DNA of 38,015 bases, taken from Bathymodiolus platifrons methanotrophic gill symbiont. GTDB lineage: Bacteria > Pseudomonadota > Gammaproteobacteria > Methylococcales > Methylomonadaceae. The stretch is from assembly GCF_002189065.1 (NCBI RefSeq), contig NZ_BDMN01000110.1, positions 1 to 38,015 of the forward strand. Reading direction: 5' to 3'. Both the position numbers and the translations under genes were made by a program. Of the stretch, positions 8,586 through 21,200 are shown in pieces. The notes below the pieces were generated by a model. The model saw nothing but the letters and a program-made list of their open reading frames with translations, made no database searches and was not told where the DNA came from. Every line of letters starts with the position of its first letter. Position 1 is the stretch's first letter.

Positions 8586-8751
8586 TTAGGGAGCTGGAAA
8601 TAAATAAACGTCCACTATTTGGGCAGGATTTTTGTTCGTATTCAAGGCGCAGTAACAGGCGCATAGCTGGCTACGCAACTGTTACTACAACGCAGAAGAC
8701 GGACAAAAAGACTAGCAATCTTGGATGATTATTTGTTTCCATCTCCCTTAA
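8586..8751. repeat. ~165-bp long imperfect palindrome, copy 1
   Basis: Almost the whole stretch folds back on itself. Outer arm GGGAGCTGGAAATAAATAA pairs with TTATTTGTTTCCATCTCCC. The middle arm GTTCGTATTC pairs with GAAGACGGAC, the inner arm AGTAACAG with CTGTTACT, and the tip GCATAGC with GCTACGC. The core GGCGCATAGC...GCAACT is shared with two other copies (8901-9064 and 20060-20226), while the arm sequences differ and still pair. No protein is encoded. Confidence 0.8.
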
Positions 8752-8805
8752 TTGTAGTGAAGATCTACAAGTTTTAACAAAACCATAGATAGAAACCTAA
8801 ATTTA

Positions 8806-8831
8806 GCATAAAGAAGATAGAGTCTTTATGC
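8806..8831. repeat. Short perfect hairpin
   Basis: GCATAAAGA and TCTTTATGC form nine-base perfect arms around an eight-base loop, between the two large palindromes. There is no T-tract, so a terminator role is unproven. Confidence 0.5.
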
Positions 8832-8900
8832 AAATGATCTCAGTGCTTTCTGTGCTGAAAATTTTTAATCTTTTATACTGAATGTCATAGCTGCTTTAAA

Positions 8901-9064
8901 CTAAGGATTGGGGATGAAATAAACTCCGAAACTGGCGCAGGATTTTTGTTCAGTTTCAAGGCGAAAAATAGGCGCATAGCAAGCTACGCAACTATTTTTA
9001 CAACACAGAAACTGAAAAAAAAGACAAGTCAGTTTCGGGTTTTATAAAATTCTCAGTCCTAAGC
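8901..9064. repeat. ~165-bp long imperfect palindrome, copy 2
   Basis: Same family as 8586-8751. The inner arm AAAAATAG pairs with CTATTTTT, the middle arm CAGTTTC with GAAACTG, and the outer CCGAAACTG with CAGTTTCGG; the far ends GGATTGGGGAT and ATTCTCAGTCC also largely pair. The tip GCATAGC/GCTACGC and the flanks GGATTTTTGTT and AAAAGAC are shared with copy 1. It ends about 75 bases before the hcp start, so it could affect hcp transcription. Confidence 0.8.
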
Positions 9065-9140: not shown

Positions 9141-10811
9141 ATGTTTTGTTACCATTGCCAGGAAGCTAAAAAGAATATTGCCTGTGATACCGCAGGAATT
9201 TGTGGAAAAAAAGCAGATGTTTCTAGCTTACATGATTTATTAACTTACGCCTTAAAAGGCCTGTCTTTTTATGCAGTACAAGCGGCTCAATCTGATATAA
9301 CTGATATTAATATTGATAAATTTACAGCGCGAGCACTATATTCAATGGTGACCAATGTTAATTTTGATCCAGCCGTCTTTGTACAATTAATTTCTGAAGC
9401 GGTACAGCGACGCGAGCATTTAAAAAGAATATTGCTGGAAAGCGGTGCCGATTTAAATAAGGAAGAAGTGCCAGAGGAAGCGCAATGGAACTATGATCAA
9501 ATTGAGCTAGCTGCCTTTGTTAAAAAAGGAGAAACAGTGGGTGTTAAGCCCAATGAAGAATTATCAGCAGATGAACTCGATCTGCATGCCGCCAGGGAGA
9601 TGTTGATATATGCAGCTAAAGGTCTAGGCTCTATATTAGAGCATGCTCAGGTGTTAGGGTTTTTTGAACTTGAGCATTATGTGTTTATGCATGAATCTGT
9701 TGCTTATACATTACGTAAAGATCCAGGTTTAGATGATATTCTTGCCATGAACTTTAAATGTGGAGAGCAATCGATACTGGCTATGGCATTGTTAGAACGG
9801 ATCAATATTGAAAAATTCGGCCAGCCGACGGCAACGAAAGTACATTTAGATACCTGGGATACACCCGGGATTCTAGTGTCTGGGCACGATTTTCATGATT
9901 TACAGGATTTGCTGGAACAAAGTGCAGGTAGTGGTGTAGATATATACACGCATGGGGAGATGATTGCCGCTCATGGATATCCTGCATTTAACAAATATTT
10001 TAATCTGGTCGCTAATTATGGCGGAGCATGGCAGGATCAGAAAACCCAATTTGGTAAGTTTCAGGGCCCTGTTTTAGTCACTAGTAATAGCCTGCAACAG
10101 CCGAAAAAAGGCTATACTGAAAAAGCGTATACTTCGGGCATGGTTGGCTGGCCTAATGTGGCACATATTGAAAAGCGCCGGGCAGATAAAGCCAAGGATT
10201 TTTCCATAATTATTGAACAAGCACTGCAATGTGAACCACCCTTACCTTTAACCGAGGGTACTGTTACGGTAGGTTATGGCCGGCAAGCGCTGATCGCTTT
10301 AACTGAGGCCATTTCCCAGTCTATTAAGTCCAGAGATATTAAACGTATTATTGTCTTAGTTGGTTGCGATGGACGGCATAAAGAGCGTCGTTATTACACA
10401 GGGTTAGTGGAAGCATTACCTGAAGATACCCTGATTTTAACGGCAGGTGATACTAAGTACAGATTCCATCAATTAGATTTAGGGGAAATCAATGGTGTGC
10501 CTCGCCTGTTAGACGCAGGGCAAACGCAAGATTTTTATGCCATCATTGCATTTTTAACGCATTTGCAAAAAAGCATGCAGTTAGAGCATTTAAATCAATT
10601 GCCAGTCTCGTTTAATATCGCCTGGTATGAGCAGCACACTATTTTAATGATGTTGTCCCTGTTAGCATTAGGGGTCAAAAATCTACGTATTGGCCCAACC
10701 TTACCACCATTTTTTAGCCCAGGAATTTTACAGAAATTAACTGACGAACTCGCTGTAAAAGGAATTGATACGCCTGAAAATGATATTGCAGCAATGTTAG
10801 CGGGTGAGTAA
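9141..10811 (+). CDS. hcp: Hybrid-cluster-protein homologue with altered cluster ligands
   Basis: A 556-residue homologue of Hcp (prismane protein; hydroxylamine/NO reductase). It starts MFCYHCQEAKKNIACDTAGI with Cys3, 6, 15 and 21: the CX2CX8CX5C spacing of class I Hcp, which carries a [4Fe-4S] cluster, unlike the CX2CX11CX6C enteric form. Compared from memory with Desulfovibrio vulgaris Hcp, the hybrid-cluster site keeps His249 (SGHD), Glu273 (THGEM), Cys409 (VGCDGR; the persulfide Cys in Hcp) and Glu497 (WYEQ). The other three Cys ligands are replaced: Ser317 (TSNS; Cys312), Asp437 (TAGDTKYRF; Cys434) and Thr462 (DAGQTQD; Cys459). The codons (AGC, GAT, ACG) are clear. The fold and surrounding motifs are otherwise well conserved, so this is not decay. 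A normal hybrid cluster seems unlikely and the activity is unknown. No hcr reductase gene is adjacent. A UPF0114 gene and a glutaredoxin-like gene follow closely. Confidence 0.93.
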   Translation: MFCYHCQEAKKNIACDTAGICGKKADVSSLHDLLTYALKGLSFYAVQAAQSDITDINIDKFTARALYSMVTNVNFDPAVFVQLISEAVQRREHLKRILLESGADLNKEEVPEEAQWNYDQIELAAFVKKGETVGVKPNEELSADELDLHAAREMLIYAAKGLGSILEHAQVLGFFELEHYVFMHESVAYTLRKDPGLDDILAMNFKCGEQSILAMALLERINIEKFGQPTATKVHLDTWDTPGILVSGHDFHDLQDLLEQSAGSGVDIYTHGEMIAAHGYPAFNKYFNLVANYGGAWQDQKTQFGKFQGPVLVTSNSLQQPKKGYTEKAYTSGMVGWPNVAHIEKRRADKAKDFSIIIEQALQCEPPLPLTEGTVTVGYGRQALIALTEAISQSIKSRDIKRIIVLVGCDGRHKERRYYTGLVEALPEDTLILTAGDTKYRFHQLDLGEINGVPRLLDAGQTQDFYAIIAFLTHLQKSMQLEHLNQLPVSFNIAWYEQHTILMMLSLLALGVKNLRIGPTLPPFFSPGILQKLTDELAVKGIDTPENDIAAMLAGE

Positions 10812-10841: not shown

Positions 10842-11336
10842 ATGGTAGAACAAACAATTGAACGCTTACTCTATGCGAGTCGGTGGTTGTTAGCACCTAT
10901 TTATTTAGGCATGAGTCTGGCTTTAGTGGCCCTGGCTATTAAGTTTTTTCAAGAGCTATACCACTTTATTCCGCTTATTTTACAGGTTGATGAGTCACAG
11001 TTAATTTTAAAATTACTAACTTTCATAGATATTACGCTGGTCGGTAGTTTAACAGTGATTGTTATGTTTAGTGGCTATGATAATTTTGTTTCCCGCCTGG
11101 ATATTGAAGAAGGAACTGAGAAATTAAACTGGTTAGGAACGCATGATTATGGTTCCTTAAAGATGAAAGTTGCCTCTTCAATCGTTGCTATTTCATCAAT
11201 ACACTTACTTAAAGTGTTTATGAATATTGAGCAATTAGCCAATGATAAATTGCTTTGGTATGTGGTAATTCATATCACTTTTGTTATCTCTGCCTTTTTA
11301 ATGGGCTATCTTGAAAAACATGTCGGCCATGACTAA
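10842..11336 (+). CDS. UPF0114 / YqhA-family inner membrane protein
   Basis: A 164-residue membrane protein of the TIGR00645/UPF0114 (YqhA) family, whose function is not established. The family signature is visible at the start ([20 protein letters not shown]) and in the middle ([20 protein letters not shown] then YDNFVSRLD). About four helices are predicted, near residues 17-37, 58-79, 110-126 and 138-158. It begins 30 bases after the hcp-like stop and overlaps the next gene by 8 bases, so the three genes look like one transcription unit. Whether it works with the Hcp-like protein is inference. Confidence 0.88.
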
Positions 11337-11550
11337 GCTCACTCTATTAGGTACTTCAGCCTGCCATTTATGCGAGCAAGCAGAGGACTTATTGCAGCAA
11401 TTAGATGTTACTTATCAGAAAATTGATATTGCTGAACAAGAACAATGGCAGGAACGGTATGCGATAAAAATCCCTGTATTACTTAATATGCAAAACCAGA
11501 AGGAGCTCTGCTGGCCTTTTGATATTGACGATATTAAAGCTTTGAAATAG
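11329..11550 (+). CDS. Glutaredoxin-like (DUF836-type) thiol protein
   Basis: A 73-residue thioredoxin-fold protein beginning [20 protein letters not shown]. The CHLC motif (Cys12, Cys15) matches the active site of small glutaredoxin-like DUF836 proteins. IPVLL near residue 44 carries the cis-Pro typical of the fold. I chose the ATG at 11329, which overlaps the end of the upstream UPF0114 gene; ATG at 11320 and TTG at 11311 are also in frame. It is probably a cytoplasmic thiol-disulfide protein. It ends just before a palindromic element that separates the cluster from fumC. Confidence 0.85.
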
Positions 11551-11553
11551 AGT

Positions 11554-11622
11554 GTAGAGCGGACTTTAGTCCGCTAGTTTTATACCCCCCCCCCTGGAAT
11601 AGCGGACTAAAGTCCGCTCTAC
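11554..11622. repeat. GCGGACT palindromic element, full copy
   Basis: Two perfect 23-base inverted arms (11554-11576 and 11600-11622), each beginning or ending GTAGAGCGGACTTTAGTCC, surround a short spacer with a run of ten C. Each arm is itself palindromic. The same element is at 26501-26569, and half an arm is at 2434-2449. It sits between the glutaredoxin-like gene and fumC, where it could act as a stem-loop at an mRNA end, though no T-tract follows. Confidence 0.88.
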
Positions 11623-20059: not shown

Positions 20060-20226
20060 TTAAGGAGCGAGGATTTAATAATACCCGAAAGTATGACGCA
20101 GGTTTTTGGTTTCACAGTCGTGCTTGGAAAACAGGCGCATAGCAGGCTATGCAACTGTTTTTATAGTGCGGCTGTGGAGCCAAAAGACAAGTCAGGCTCG
20201 GGTATTATTGAGTTCTCACTCCTAAG
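20060..20226. repeat. ~165-bp long imperfect palindrome, copy 3
   Basis: Same family as 8586-8751 and 8901-9064. The tip GCATAGC/GCTATGC is perfect, the inner arm AAAACAG pairs with CTGTTTT, and the middle CACAGTCG with GGCTGTGG. The outer AATAATACCCGA pairs with TCGGGTATTATT, and the ends with AGGAGCGAG/CTCACTCCT. Its right end overlaps the stop of the retropepsin copy. The plus-strand frame at 20000-20230 inside it is not a gene. Confidence 0.8.
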
Positions 20227-20630
20227 GTAACTCGATCACCATCTTGCCATCAAACTGAGTGACTTTAAACTTTTTTAGAACAGTCATGCCAATTAAAACC
20301 CGATCTAGTTTTTCAAGAATAAGTGCATGCGTATTTTTCAAGGTGATAGACCCGATTGTTAAAGTAGCTATCGTGGTTTGATATGCTCTCACGTTTCCTG
20401 CTGCTGTACTACTGACAACAGGCATACCAAATATTAAACCTGCCTGTTTAGCTAATTTACTAGGAACTGCTACTGAGGTTGCGCCGGTATCGATCATAAA
20501 CTCCATTTTATGCTTATTAATCATTCCGATTCCGGAATAATGTCCTCTTCTGTCAGCCGAAATAATGATTCCTTGCTGCGTACTTTTAATTGGATTTTCA
20601 AGTAGTGCGTGTTGAATAATGTCATTCGGG
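20205..20630. repeat. Duplicated block A (retropepsin locus)
   Basis: This 426-base block is repeated as 20676-21102 (427 bases). I see two differences: G/A near 20580, changing Thr to Met, and one extra C in the other copy at 20822-20825. A MITE fragment lies exactly between the two blocks. Confidence 0.9.
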
Positions 20631-20635
20631 AGCAT
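20222..20635 (-). CDS. Retropepsin-like aspartic protease, copy A, lacking signal peptide
   Basis: A 137-residue single-domain aspartic protease of clan AA. The catalytic motif is FMIDTGATSVAVPSKLAKQA and the C-terminal end is intact (ALILEKLDRVLIGMTVLKKF, ending VIELP). Such proteins are usually exported or membrane-anchored and dimerise for activity. Compared with copy B, this one lacks the N-terminal membrane/signal segment. Its ATG (20633-20635) is supplied by the adjacent MITE fragment and only two new residues precede the shared sequence. It may be translated but mislocalised, or it may be dead. It was produced by the local duplication. Confidence 0.75.
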   Translation of the reverse strand: MLPNDIIQHALLENPIKSTQQGIIISADRRGHYSGIGMINKHKMEFMIDTGATSVAVPSKLAKQAGLIFGMPVVSSTAAGNVRAYQTTIATLTIGSITLKNTHALILEKLDRVLIGMTVLKKFKVTQFDGKMVIELP

Positions 20636-20675
20636 AGTTTCAATTTTACCATAAATAATTATTGGGAAACTTCAG
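20632..20675 (-). mobile_element. MITE terminal fragment
   Basis: These 44 bases are the reverse complement of the first 44 bases of the 204-bp MITE at 13193 and 14879, including the full terminal repeat CTGAAGTTTCCCAATAATT. The other 160 bases are missing. It sits exactly at the junction of the duplicated retropepsin blocks. Confidence 0.92.
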
Positions 20676-21102
20676 TTATTGAGTTCTCACTCCTAAGGTA
20701 ACTCGATCACCATCTTGCCATCAAACTGAGTGACTTTAAACTTTTTTAGAACAGTCATGCCAATTAAAACCCGATCTAGTTTTTCAAGAATAAGTGCATG
20801 CGTATTTTTCAAGGTGATAGACCCCGATTGTTAAAGTAGCTATCGTGGTTTGATATGCTCTCACGTTTCCTGCTGCTGTACTACTGACAACAGGCATACC
20901 AAATATTAAACCTGCCTGTTTAGCTAATTTACTAGGAACTGCTACTGAGGTTGCGCCGGTATCGATCATAAACTCCATTTTATGCTTATTAATCATTCCG
21001 ATTCCGGAATAATGTCCTCTTCTGTCAGCCGAAATAATGATTCCTTGCTGCATACTTTTAATTGGATTTTCAAGTAGTGCGTGTTGAATAATGTCATTCG
21101 GG
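20676..21102. repeat. Duplicated block B (retropepsin locus)
   Basis: Second copy of 20205-20630, starting right after the MITE terminal repeat with TTATTGAG. It has one extra base relative to block A, which breaks the reading frame of the gene it carries. Confidence 0.9.
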
Positions 21103-21200
21103 TGCTCAATTGCATAACTTGGCGATTGCCTAGTCAGGAAATTGTCTGCTGCCAAATACATGAGAACGAAAGTAATAAAAACAAACAAGAGTGGCTTCAT
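20693..21200 (-). pseudogene. Retropepsin-like aspartic protease, copy B, frameshifted
   Basis: This copy has the complete N-terminus: a hydrophobic export or anchor segment (MKPLLFVFITFVLMYLAADN), then the protease domain with FMIDTGATSVAVPSKLAKQA. The frame breaks after TIATLTIG because of one extra C in the run at 20822-20825, and ends early at 138 residues. Restoring one base gives about 168 residues ending VIELP, the same as copy A. The run of four C makes a sequencing or slippage error plausible; if so, this is the functional gene. Clan AA proteases of this kind are common in proteobacteria, with poorly defined substrates. Confidence 0.8.

Follow-up and report, generated by a model that had tools for sequence, protein, structure and literature searches.

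A hybrid cluster protein paralogue of methanotrophs in which three of the four hybrid-cluster cysteines are replaced

Introduction

Does a protein that annotation models name hydroxylamine reductase still deserve that name when three of the four cysteines of its hybrid cluster have been replaced? The question is raised by a gene of the Bathymodiolus platifrons methanotrophic gill symbiont (Methylococcales; Methylomonadaceae), which lies at positions 9141 to 10811 on the forward strand of contig NZ_BDMN01000110.1 (assembly GCF_002189065.1). In this study, positions 1 to 38,015 of this contig, hereafter the window, were analysed, and the product of the gene, a member of the hybrid cluster protein (Hcp) family, is referred to as Hcp*.

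In canonical Hcp, one iron of the Fe-S-O hybrid cluster is held by Cys459, His244 and Glu268 (PMC9311411), and another has as ligands Glu490 and the persulfide cysteine 402 (PMC10210160), which correspond by alignment to Glu494 and Cys406 in the numbering of the Desulfovibrio vulgaris protein used here. Cys312 and Cys434 presumably serve the remaining irons of the cluster. The ligands have been described as conserved in all classes of Hcp (PMC10502027), and no earlier report of a cysteine-less Hcp was found in the literature searched, which mostly excludes subscription journals. The gene and its sites, with the D. vulgaris equivalents in brackets, are as follows.

9141..10811, + strand: Hcp* gene, Hcp-family protein without three of the four hybrid-cluster cysteines (open reading frame, profile matches, alignment)
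9147..9203, + strand: N-terminal CX2CX8CX5C (Cys3, 6, 15 and 21), proximal [4Fe-4S] site with class I spacing (alignment, codons)
9885..9887, + strand: His249 (His244), retained Fe ligand, codon CAC (alignment, codon)
9957..9959, + strand: Glu273 (Glu268), retained Fe ligand, codon GAG (alignment, codon)
10089..10091, + strand: Ser317 replacing the cluster ligand Cys312, codon AGC (alignment, codon)
10365..10367, + strand: Cys409 (Cys406, the persulfide cysteine), present here, codon TGC (alignment, codon)
10449..10451, + strand: Asp437 replacing the cluster ligand Cys434, codon GAT (alignment, codon)
10524..10526, + strand: Thr462 replacing the cluster ligand Cys459, codon ACG (alignment, codon)
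10629..10631, + strand: Glu497 (Glu494), retained Fe ligand, codon GAG (alignment, codon)

Loss of the cluster ligands

The Hcp* gene is an open reading frame with an ATG start that encodes 556 amino acids without an internal stop codon, and it is the one Prismane-family match in the window genome (99% complete, 613 contigs). The protein matched the PF03063 profile with 386 bits over residues 1-549, and the hydroxylamine reductase models NF003658 and TIGR01703 with 616 bits (cut-off 367) and 572 bits (cut-off 361), respectively; its annotation as hydroxylamine reductase comes from a sequence model alone. It shares approximately 41% identity with D. vulgaris Hcp (1e2u), and the alignment is free of gaps near the cluster positions, so that window residues 3, 6, 15, 21, 249, 273, 317, 409, 437, 462 and 497 correspond to D. 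vulgaris residues 3, 6, 15, 21, 244, 268, 312, 406, 434, 459 and 494. A preliminary description of the window had claimed that Ser317, Asp437 and Thr462 stand where Cys312, Cys434 and Cys459 are expected, while the N-terminal motif, His249, Glu273, Cys409 and Glu497 are kept, and the gap-free alignment and the codons (for the N-terminal cysteines TGT, TGC, TGT and TGT, in order) bore this out in full. Thus, three of the seven ligands expected of a functional Hcp (one His, two Glu and four Cys) are replaced in the window protein. In addition, Lys496, which is present in 65 of 65 canonical Hcps, is His499 here. The spacing CX2CX8CX5C differs from the longer N-terminal cysteine spacing of class II Hcps.

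One protein was read from each of the 41 genomes that carry Hcp*, with genomes G147, G148, G224 and G257 tied to their loci through matching coordinates. The comparison set held 110 distinct rows, comprising the 41 clade members, 65 sequences with the full ligand set (D. vulgaris included) and four that were set aside, namely the composite frame L144, the canonical sequences L108 and L112, both cut, and L067, which covers 64 residues of a clade member. Outside the clade, every one of the 65 distinct Hcps with all sites readable kept the complete ligand set. In the clade, Cys312, Cys434 and Cys459 were absent from all 41 members, and at least three of the seven ligands were replaced in every one. 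Position 312 was Ser in 40 members and Asn in one; position 434 was acidic throughout (Asp 35, Glu 6); position 459 was Ser (18), Thr (14), Ala (4), Asn (2), Val (1), Ile (1) or Gly (1); and position 406 was Cys (23), Thr (9), Tyr (5, all of the window's own genus), Ala (3) or Gly (1). Glu268 and Glu494 were invariant, position 244 was His in 37 members (Ser 2, Gln 1, Asn 1), and position 496 was Gln (20), Lys (19), His (1) or Thr (1). The four N-terminal cysteines were all present in 38 of the 41, the exceptions being two contig-end cuts (L017, L022) and one sequence that had lost residues 1-19 (L005/L034).

The possibility that the ligand cysteines had merely shifted to nearby positions, which the preliminary description had named as a finding that would overturn its claim, was checked and rejected for the clade, as no invariant new cysteine occurs near the sites. 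The only cysteines conserved throughout the 39 near-full-length members are 3, 6, 15 and 21 (L005 is without the first three, owing to its truncation). Others are partly conserved, with Cys207 in 29 members, Cys364 in 25, Cys409 in 22, Cys154 in 11 and Cys435, two residues from the lost ligand site at 437, in six only; Cys148, Cys223 and Cys430 occur in four members each. Cys207 and Cys364 are not relocated ligands, since both are present in L081, the canonical sister sequence of the clade, and Cys364 also occurs in D. vulgaris.

The sequence set aside as L144 (G958:C27) is an observation apart. It is an open frame of 516 amino acids in which the C-terminal part of an Hcp stands behind an unrelated N-terminal sequence, which may reflect a fusion, a broken gene or read-through at a junction; it has Gln in the column of position 244 and all four hybrid-cluster cysteines.

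These data indicate that an artefact of sequencing, assembly or alignment, or chance, is excluded in practice, because 41 genomes, those of Methylobacter luteus and M. marinus among them, each encode a protein that lacks Cys312, Cys434 and Cys459, and the alignment at the sites is gap-free. Furthermore, because none of the three remains in any member and no invariant cysteine has arisen nearby, a canonical cluster is very unlikely, and both the Fe-S-O hybrid cluster and the annotated hydroxylamine and nitric oxide (NO) reductase function have very probably been lost in Hcp*. As judged from sequence, the label "hydroxylamine reductase" is probably a misannotation. Hcp* belongs to the Hcp family by descent and fold and not by its defining cofactor site. 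It is a class I paralogue of single origin that has lost the sulfur side of the active site and retained the oxygen and nitrogen side.

A modified Fe-S-O cluster with Ser, Asp and Glu ligands, which might still reduce NO or hydroxylamine, should be weighed against this loss. Iron-sulfur clusters with Asp or Ser as a ligand occur in other proteins, and the scores lie far over the cut-offs of the hydroxylamine reductase models. Hybrid clusters are also described as rearranging readily (PMC9311411). However, at position 459 no oxygen ligand is kept in seven of the 41 members (Ala, Val, Ile or Gly), and the thiolate at position 406 is missing in 18 (Thr, Tyr, Ala or Gly). A modified reductase of this kind is considered unlikely, and two further observations on canonical Hcp and Hcr, given below, point the same way.

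Distribution and origin of Hcp*

An Hcp match was found in 72 of the 237 genomes of the window's family, and 41 of the 237 hold Hcp* with a best match of at least 626 bits; all other matches reached at most 404 bits, except one of 571 bits in G260. The clade is spread over six genera of this methanotroph family, and named carriers include Methyloprofundus, Methylobacter luteus, M. marinus and methanotrophic symbionts of Bathymodiolus, sponges and Gigantopelta. Judging by record titles, many of these carriers seem to live in the sea or as symbionts of mussels, sponges or snails. Within the window's genus, G013 was the sole genome of 18 without an Hcp* match; its UPF0114 gene, the downstream neighbour of Hcp* in the window, is cut at a contig end, and because the contig ends exactly where Hcp* would lie, the absence is unproven. 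Outside the family, only the window itself matched the clade by score in samples of 369 class genomes and 398 phylum genomes. A scan of genome contigs of 84,980 species with two clade-derived peptide patterns returned 36 loci, of which 35 belonged to the clade (one being a 64-residue piece) and one was a canonical Hcp of Brachyspira; as the patterns were derived from the clade, cysteine-less Hcps unlike it may occur elsewhere. No relative was found in a viral collection scanned with two clade-derived peptide patterns, and all 46 matches in plasmid records had less than 60% identity.

A maximum-likelihood tree built from 67 proteins placed the 39 Hcp* sequences of near-full length in one group (support 100/100) on a stem branch of 0.45 changes per column, with the class II Hcps grouping apart from it. 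The sister of the clade was L081 (G260:C13:17266-18933; support 99/96), a canonical class I Hcp of 45% identity with all seven ligands and Lys496; the methanotroph draft genome from which it was taken encodes Hcp* as well, and the 571 bits of L081 are the only intermediate score in the 237 genomes. The sister relation rests on little, because L081 is a single draft-genome sequence and the class I sample comprised 12 rows. The preliminary description had suggested a search for a clade with Ser, Asp and Thr at the three positions, and alignment and tree revealed one of Ser, Asp or Glu, and a small residue, with a single origin. The simplest history would therefore be that one class I ancestor in these methanotrophs lost the three cysteines along one long branch, and that the result has been conserved since.

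Hcp* is no simple replacement of canonical Hcp, because 20 of the 41 Hcp* genomes carry both (19 with a class-II-scoring Hcp, plus L081), as compared with 31 of the 196 other genomes that carry a canonical Hcp. This tally was made by eye from the score table, with part of the proteins read residue by residue and one of the 31 being a fragment (G065). G008, for example, has one Hcp* gene and one canonical hcp gene. In the 20 genomes the reductase function is thus covered elsewhere, which argues against a modified but still reductive cluster in Hcp*.

Selection, fold and the former cluster pocket

No stop codon was found inside any of the matches, and the ratio of nonsynonymous to synonymous substitutions (dN/dS, Nei-Gojobori) was 0.056-0.212 in 16 clade pairs, the highest value belonging to a pair of sponge symbionts, and 0.035-0.052 in three canonical pairs, with dS near saturation in many of the pairs. 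The canonical set has 93 columns with at least 97% conservation; the clade has the same majority residue in 76 of these and a different one in 17, among them 312, 434 and 459. An AlphaFold2 model of the window protein (33 sequences) had a predicted local distance difference test score (pLDDT) of 88 and a predicted template modelling (TM) score of 0.89, with residues 5-20 below 50 in pLDDT. Foldseek aligned the model to 1e2u with a TM score of 0.91 and a root mean square deviation of 1.9, and the best Protein Data Bank matches were class I Hcps; VIA-align gave Z scores of 47.8-48.2 against 1gn9, 8cnr and 1e2u, compared with 43-48 for Hcps overall and approximately 26 and below for carbon monoxide dehydrogenases (CODHs). 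The structure prediction that had been proposed as a check therefore points to a retained class I Hcp fold.

A gene decaying towards loss might be suspected from the lost active-site ligands, from a dN/dS slightly above that of the canonical pairs and from a 5' truncation in the B. japonicus symbiont. However, the change is a single ancient one common to 41 genomes, with no internal stops and with the dN/dS range given above, so that decay is highly improbable for the clade as a whole. The preliminary description had called the gene intact and probably repurposed; the first point was confirmed by the reading frame and by the purifying selection on its relatives, and repurposing fits better than decay because, in addition, the clade is of single origin. 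Of the roles suggested there, a different metal centre, electron transfer or sensing may each apply.

What the pocket now does can be proposed tentatively. The sulfur ligands are gone, except for Cys406 in 23 of the 41 members, the oxygen and nitrogen ligands stay and a new acid has appeared at position 434, and for this reason a site for a hard metal is proposed. The former hybrid-cluster pocket would bind one or two metal ions, with iron as the first choice, through carboxylates and a histidine (Glu273, Asp or Glu at 437, Glu497 and usually His249); the retained N-terminal [4Fe-4S] cluster would feed electrons to this site, which would sense a small oxidant or act on it, NO, O2 and peroxide being candidates. 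Carboxylate-ligated iron proteins are known to do so. The mechanism as a whole is possible, if somewhat short of an even chance. Its full form, in which a non-heme metal site with oxygen and nitrogen ligands only (Glu, Asp or Glu, Glu and usually His), wired to a [4Fe-4S] cluster, evolved from the hybrid-cluster site of Hcp and perhaps lets aerobic methanotrophs respond to NO, O2 or peroxide in an oxygen-tolerant way, is more doubtful. To our knowledge, such a metal centre occurs nowhere else in the Hcp/CODH superfamily.

A near-equal rival of the metal site is an empty pocket, in which only the N-terminal [4Fe-4S] cluster is bound, side chains occupy the old site, and Hcp* acts in electron transfer, in redox or NO sensing or as a partner scaffold; this is also possible, with a likelihood only slightly lower. 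The presence of the four N-terminal cysteines in 38 of the 41 members, with two contig cuts and one truncation as the exceptions, is consistent with it, and so are bulkier residues at canonically small positions and the variation at 406 and 459. Conversely, the invariance of Glu268 and Glu494 and an acid at 434 in all 41 members would be unneeded if the pocket were idle. Moreover, the stretches near the ligands are more conserved than the remainder of the protein, as 27 of 67 positions in seven motif stretches are invariant among the 39 near-full-length members versus 114 of 552 columns overall; in D. vulgaris numbering, the invariant residues include Gly243, His266, Asn311, Gly405, Asp407, Gly408, Arg409, Gly433, Gly457, Gln458, Trp492 and Gln495. 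Positions 459 and 496 vary together (relatedness uncorrected): all 19 members with Lys496 have Ser or Asn at 459, and 21 of the 22 without Lys496 have a different residue there. The sister pair L071/L073 differs at both positions.

Several observations weigh against the metal site. A strict carboxylate-plus-histidine site is not universal, because the residue at His249 is Gln, Ser or Asn in four of the 41 members, and the stretches are not uniformly frozen, as 269, 270, 271, 313, 435, 460 and 463 vary besides 406, 459 and 496. Ala469 and Ala497, each present in 65 of 65 canonical Hcps, are replaced by Leu in 36 and by Thr in 37 of 39 members, respectively, and 36 of 39 members have Phe at position 462, where canonical Hcps have Ala, Ser or Thr; with such bulkier residues at formerly small positions, the cavity could simply be filled. 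The exchange of Tyr161 for Leu in 36 of 39 goes in the opposite direction of size. Constraint on Hcp* is also somewhat weaker, as dN/dS lies above that of the three canonical pairs, and the neighbours of the gene name no substrate and differ between genera. Finally, Hcp* of the B. japonicus symbiont (L005/L034; L034 1480-1560) is without residues 1-19, including three N-terminal cysteines, and may be dispensable or decaying there; a second Hcp* fragment lies on another contig of this symbiont (G001:C16:83302-83574, 71% identity to residues 99-190).

Gene neighbourhood

In the window, the Hcp* gene is followed by two genes and a terminator-like hairpin.

10842..11336, + strand: UPF0114 (TIGR00645) family gene, 30 bp downstream of Hcp* (profile match, neighbourhood)
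11311..11550, + strand: small glutaredoxin-like protein (PF05768), overlapping the end of the UPF0114 gene, its true start perhaps inside the open reading frame
11558..11575, + strand: terminator-like hairpin after the three-gene unit (consensus scan, weak: 5 sites versus 2.5 expected)

The neighbourhoods of 37 Hcp* loci were compared, 13 of the Methyloprofundus type and 24 others. The order Hcp*, UPF0114 gene and glutaredoxin-like gene, with the UPF0114 gene on the strand of Hcp*, was found in 12 of the 13 Methyloprofundus-type loci, L051 being the exception. None of the other 24 loci had the glutaredoxin-like gene as a neighbour. The preliminary description had suggested that the retained Cys409 might serve thiol or nitrosothiol chemistry. 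Thiol, persulfide or nitrosothiol chemistry centred on this cysteine is in agreement with its presence in the window protein and 23 of the 41 members and with the glutaredoxin-like gene of the Methyloprofundus-type loci, but the absence of that gene from the neighbourhoods of the other loci and a non-cysteine residue in 18 members, including the five of the window's genus with Tyr, leave the suggestion unsupported for the clade and very improbable. The UPF0114 gene was present in 134 of the 237 family genomes and in 26 of 29 genera, most of them without Hcp*; it was consequently rejected as a dedicated partner and is probably a bystander.

In other genera, metG lies directly upstream of Hcp* in 18 of the 37 loci (17 distinct, L054 and L091 being one place), and an orphan gene for an RnfB-type ferredoxin lies directly downstream in 14 (13 distinct). 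The gap between metG and Hcp* ranges from a stop overlapping the start (L058) through approximately 20-25 bp (L044, L048) to more than 250 bp (L082), and the tight arrangement suggests that expression in those genera would be steady and not NO-induced. A third group adjoins neither metG nor rnfB (L046, L047, L055, L057, L061). The position of Hcp* between metG and a possible electron partner in several genera favours an electron-transfer protein with an empty pocket. However, among 10 genomes searched, metG and rnfB are near neighbours, approximately 250 and 390 bp apart, in two (G093, G101) of the four that are free of the variant, so that rnfB may accompany Hcp* only as a passenger; for G027 and G114, the remaining two, the flank read (approximately 1.5 kb) contained no metG. 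The window genome has its best rnfB match on a contig other than that of Hcp*. RnfB is thus a doubtful candidate for a dedicated electron donor of Hcp*, and metG, rnfB and UPF0114 are poor evidence of function, because the metG/rnfB pairing and UPF0114 also occur without Hcp*.

No Hcr-type reductase was recognised among the recurrent neighbours of Hcp* (single neighbours were unannotated), and the three matches to PF00175, the NAD-binding family of Hcr, in the window genome are all on other contigs, which speaks further against a modified but reductive cluster. A strict FNR-like pattern was not matched within 400 bp upstream of 28 loci, and no Rfam family at the gathering threshold and no tRNA was found in the window.

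A dispersed repeat of approximately 90-100 bp, as delimited by eye, with the core GGCGCATAGCNNGCTACGCAACT has two copies upstream of Hcp* (8610-9040) and a further copy with one mismatch at 20134-20156; the core has 22 exact copies in the genome, and the reversed control pattern has none. On the reverse strand at 20222-21200 there are two nearly identical tandem open reading frames of 137 and 138 amino acids that diverge at the C-terminus, which we take to resemble retropepsin-type aspartic proteases.

Comparison with known systems

With class I Hcps (1e2u, D. desulfuricans 1gn9 and M. thermolithotrophicus 8cnr), Hcp* shares full-length homology, fold, N-terminal spacing, Glu268, Glu494 and usually His244; it differs by lacking Cys312, Cys434 and Cys459 in all 41 members, Cys406 in 18 and Lys496 in 22. 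L081 has His5 and Asn288 in common with the clade but keeps the seven ligands and Lys496. Class II Hcps that work with Hcr (E. coli, Methylobacter tundripaludum) belong to the same family, and a class-II-scoring Hcp occurs in 19 of the 41 Hcp* genomes; unlike Hcp*, they have the longer N-terminal motif and, in those read, all ligands, and identity is approximately 38%. The canonical Hcp/Hcr of M. tundripaludum has been reported as a hypoxia-induced NO reductase (PMC6977074).

A precedent for natural ligand change exists in the same Pfam family. In CooS-V of Carboxydothermus hydrogenoformans and in deviant Ni-CODHs, an altered active-site ligand changes the cluster and the activity (PMC9311411, PMC6344411); in CooS-V one exchange makes a hybrid cluster, whereas in Hcp* three to four exchanges would unmake one. 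The C-cluster of CODH has cysteines at the equivalents of Hcp 312, 406, 434 and 459, with one more Cys where Hcp has Glu268 (PMC10502027). According to that equivalence, the corresponding residues of the window protein are Ser, Cys, Asp, Thr and Glu, so that it does not carry the cysteine ligands of a Ni-CODH.

Conclusion

A clade of methanotrophs that includes symbionts of deep-sea mussels and of sponges carries an intact Hcp under selection that is very probably unable to hold the usual cluster. Because annotation models call this protein hydroxylamine reductase, the inference of hydroxylamine detoxification from the label alone is unsafe. In Methyloprofundus INp10, for example, two hcp homologues were reported, one of them highly transcribed, and this was taken as a sign of hydroxylamine (PMC8788690), which is a reading of that kind. 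The Hcp* clade further offers a natural experiment on which ligands of Hcp serve which function.

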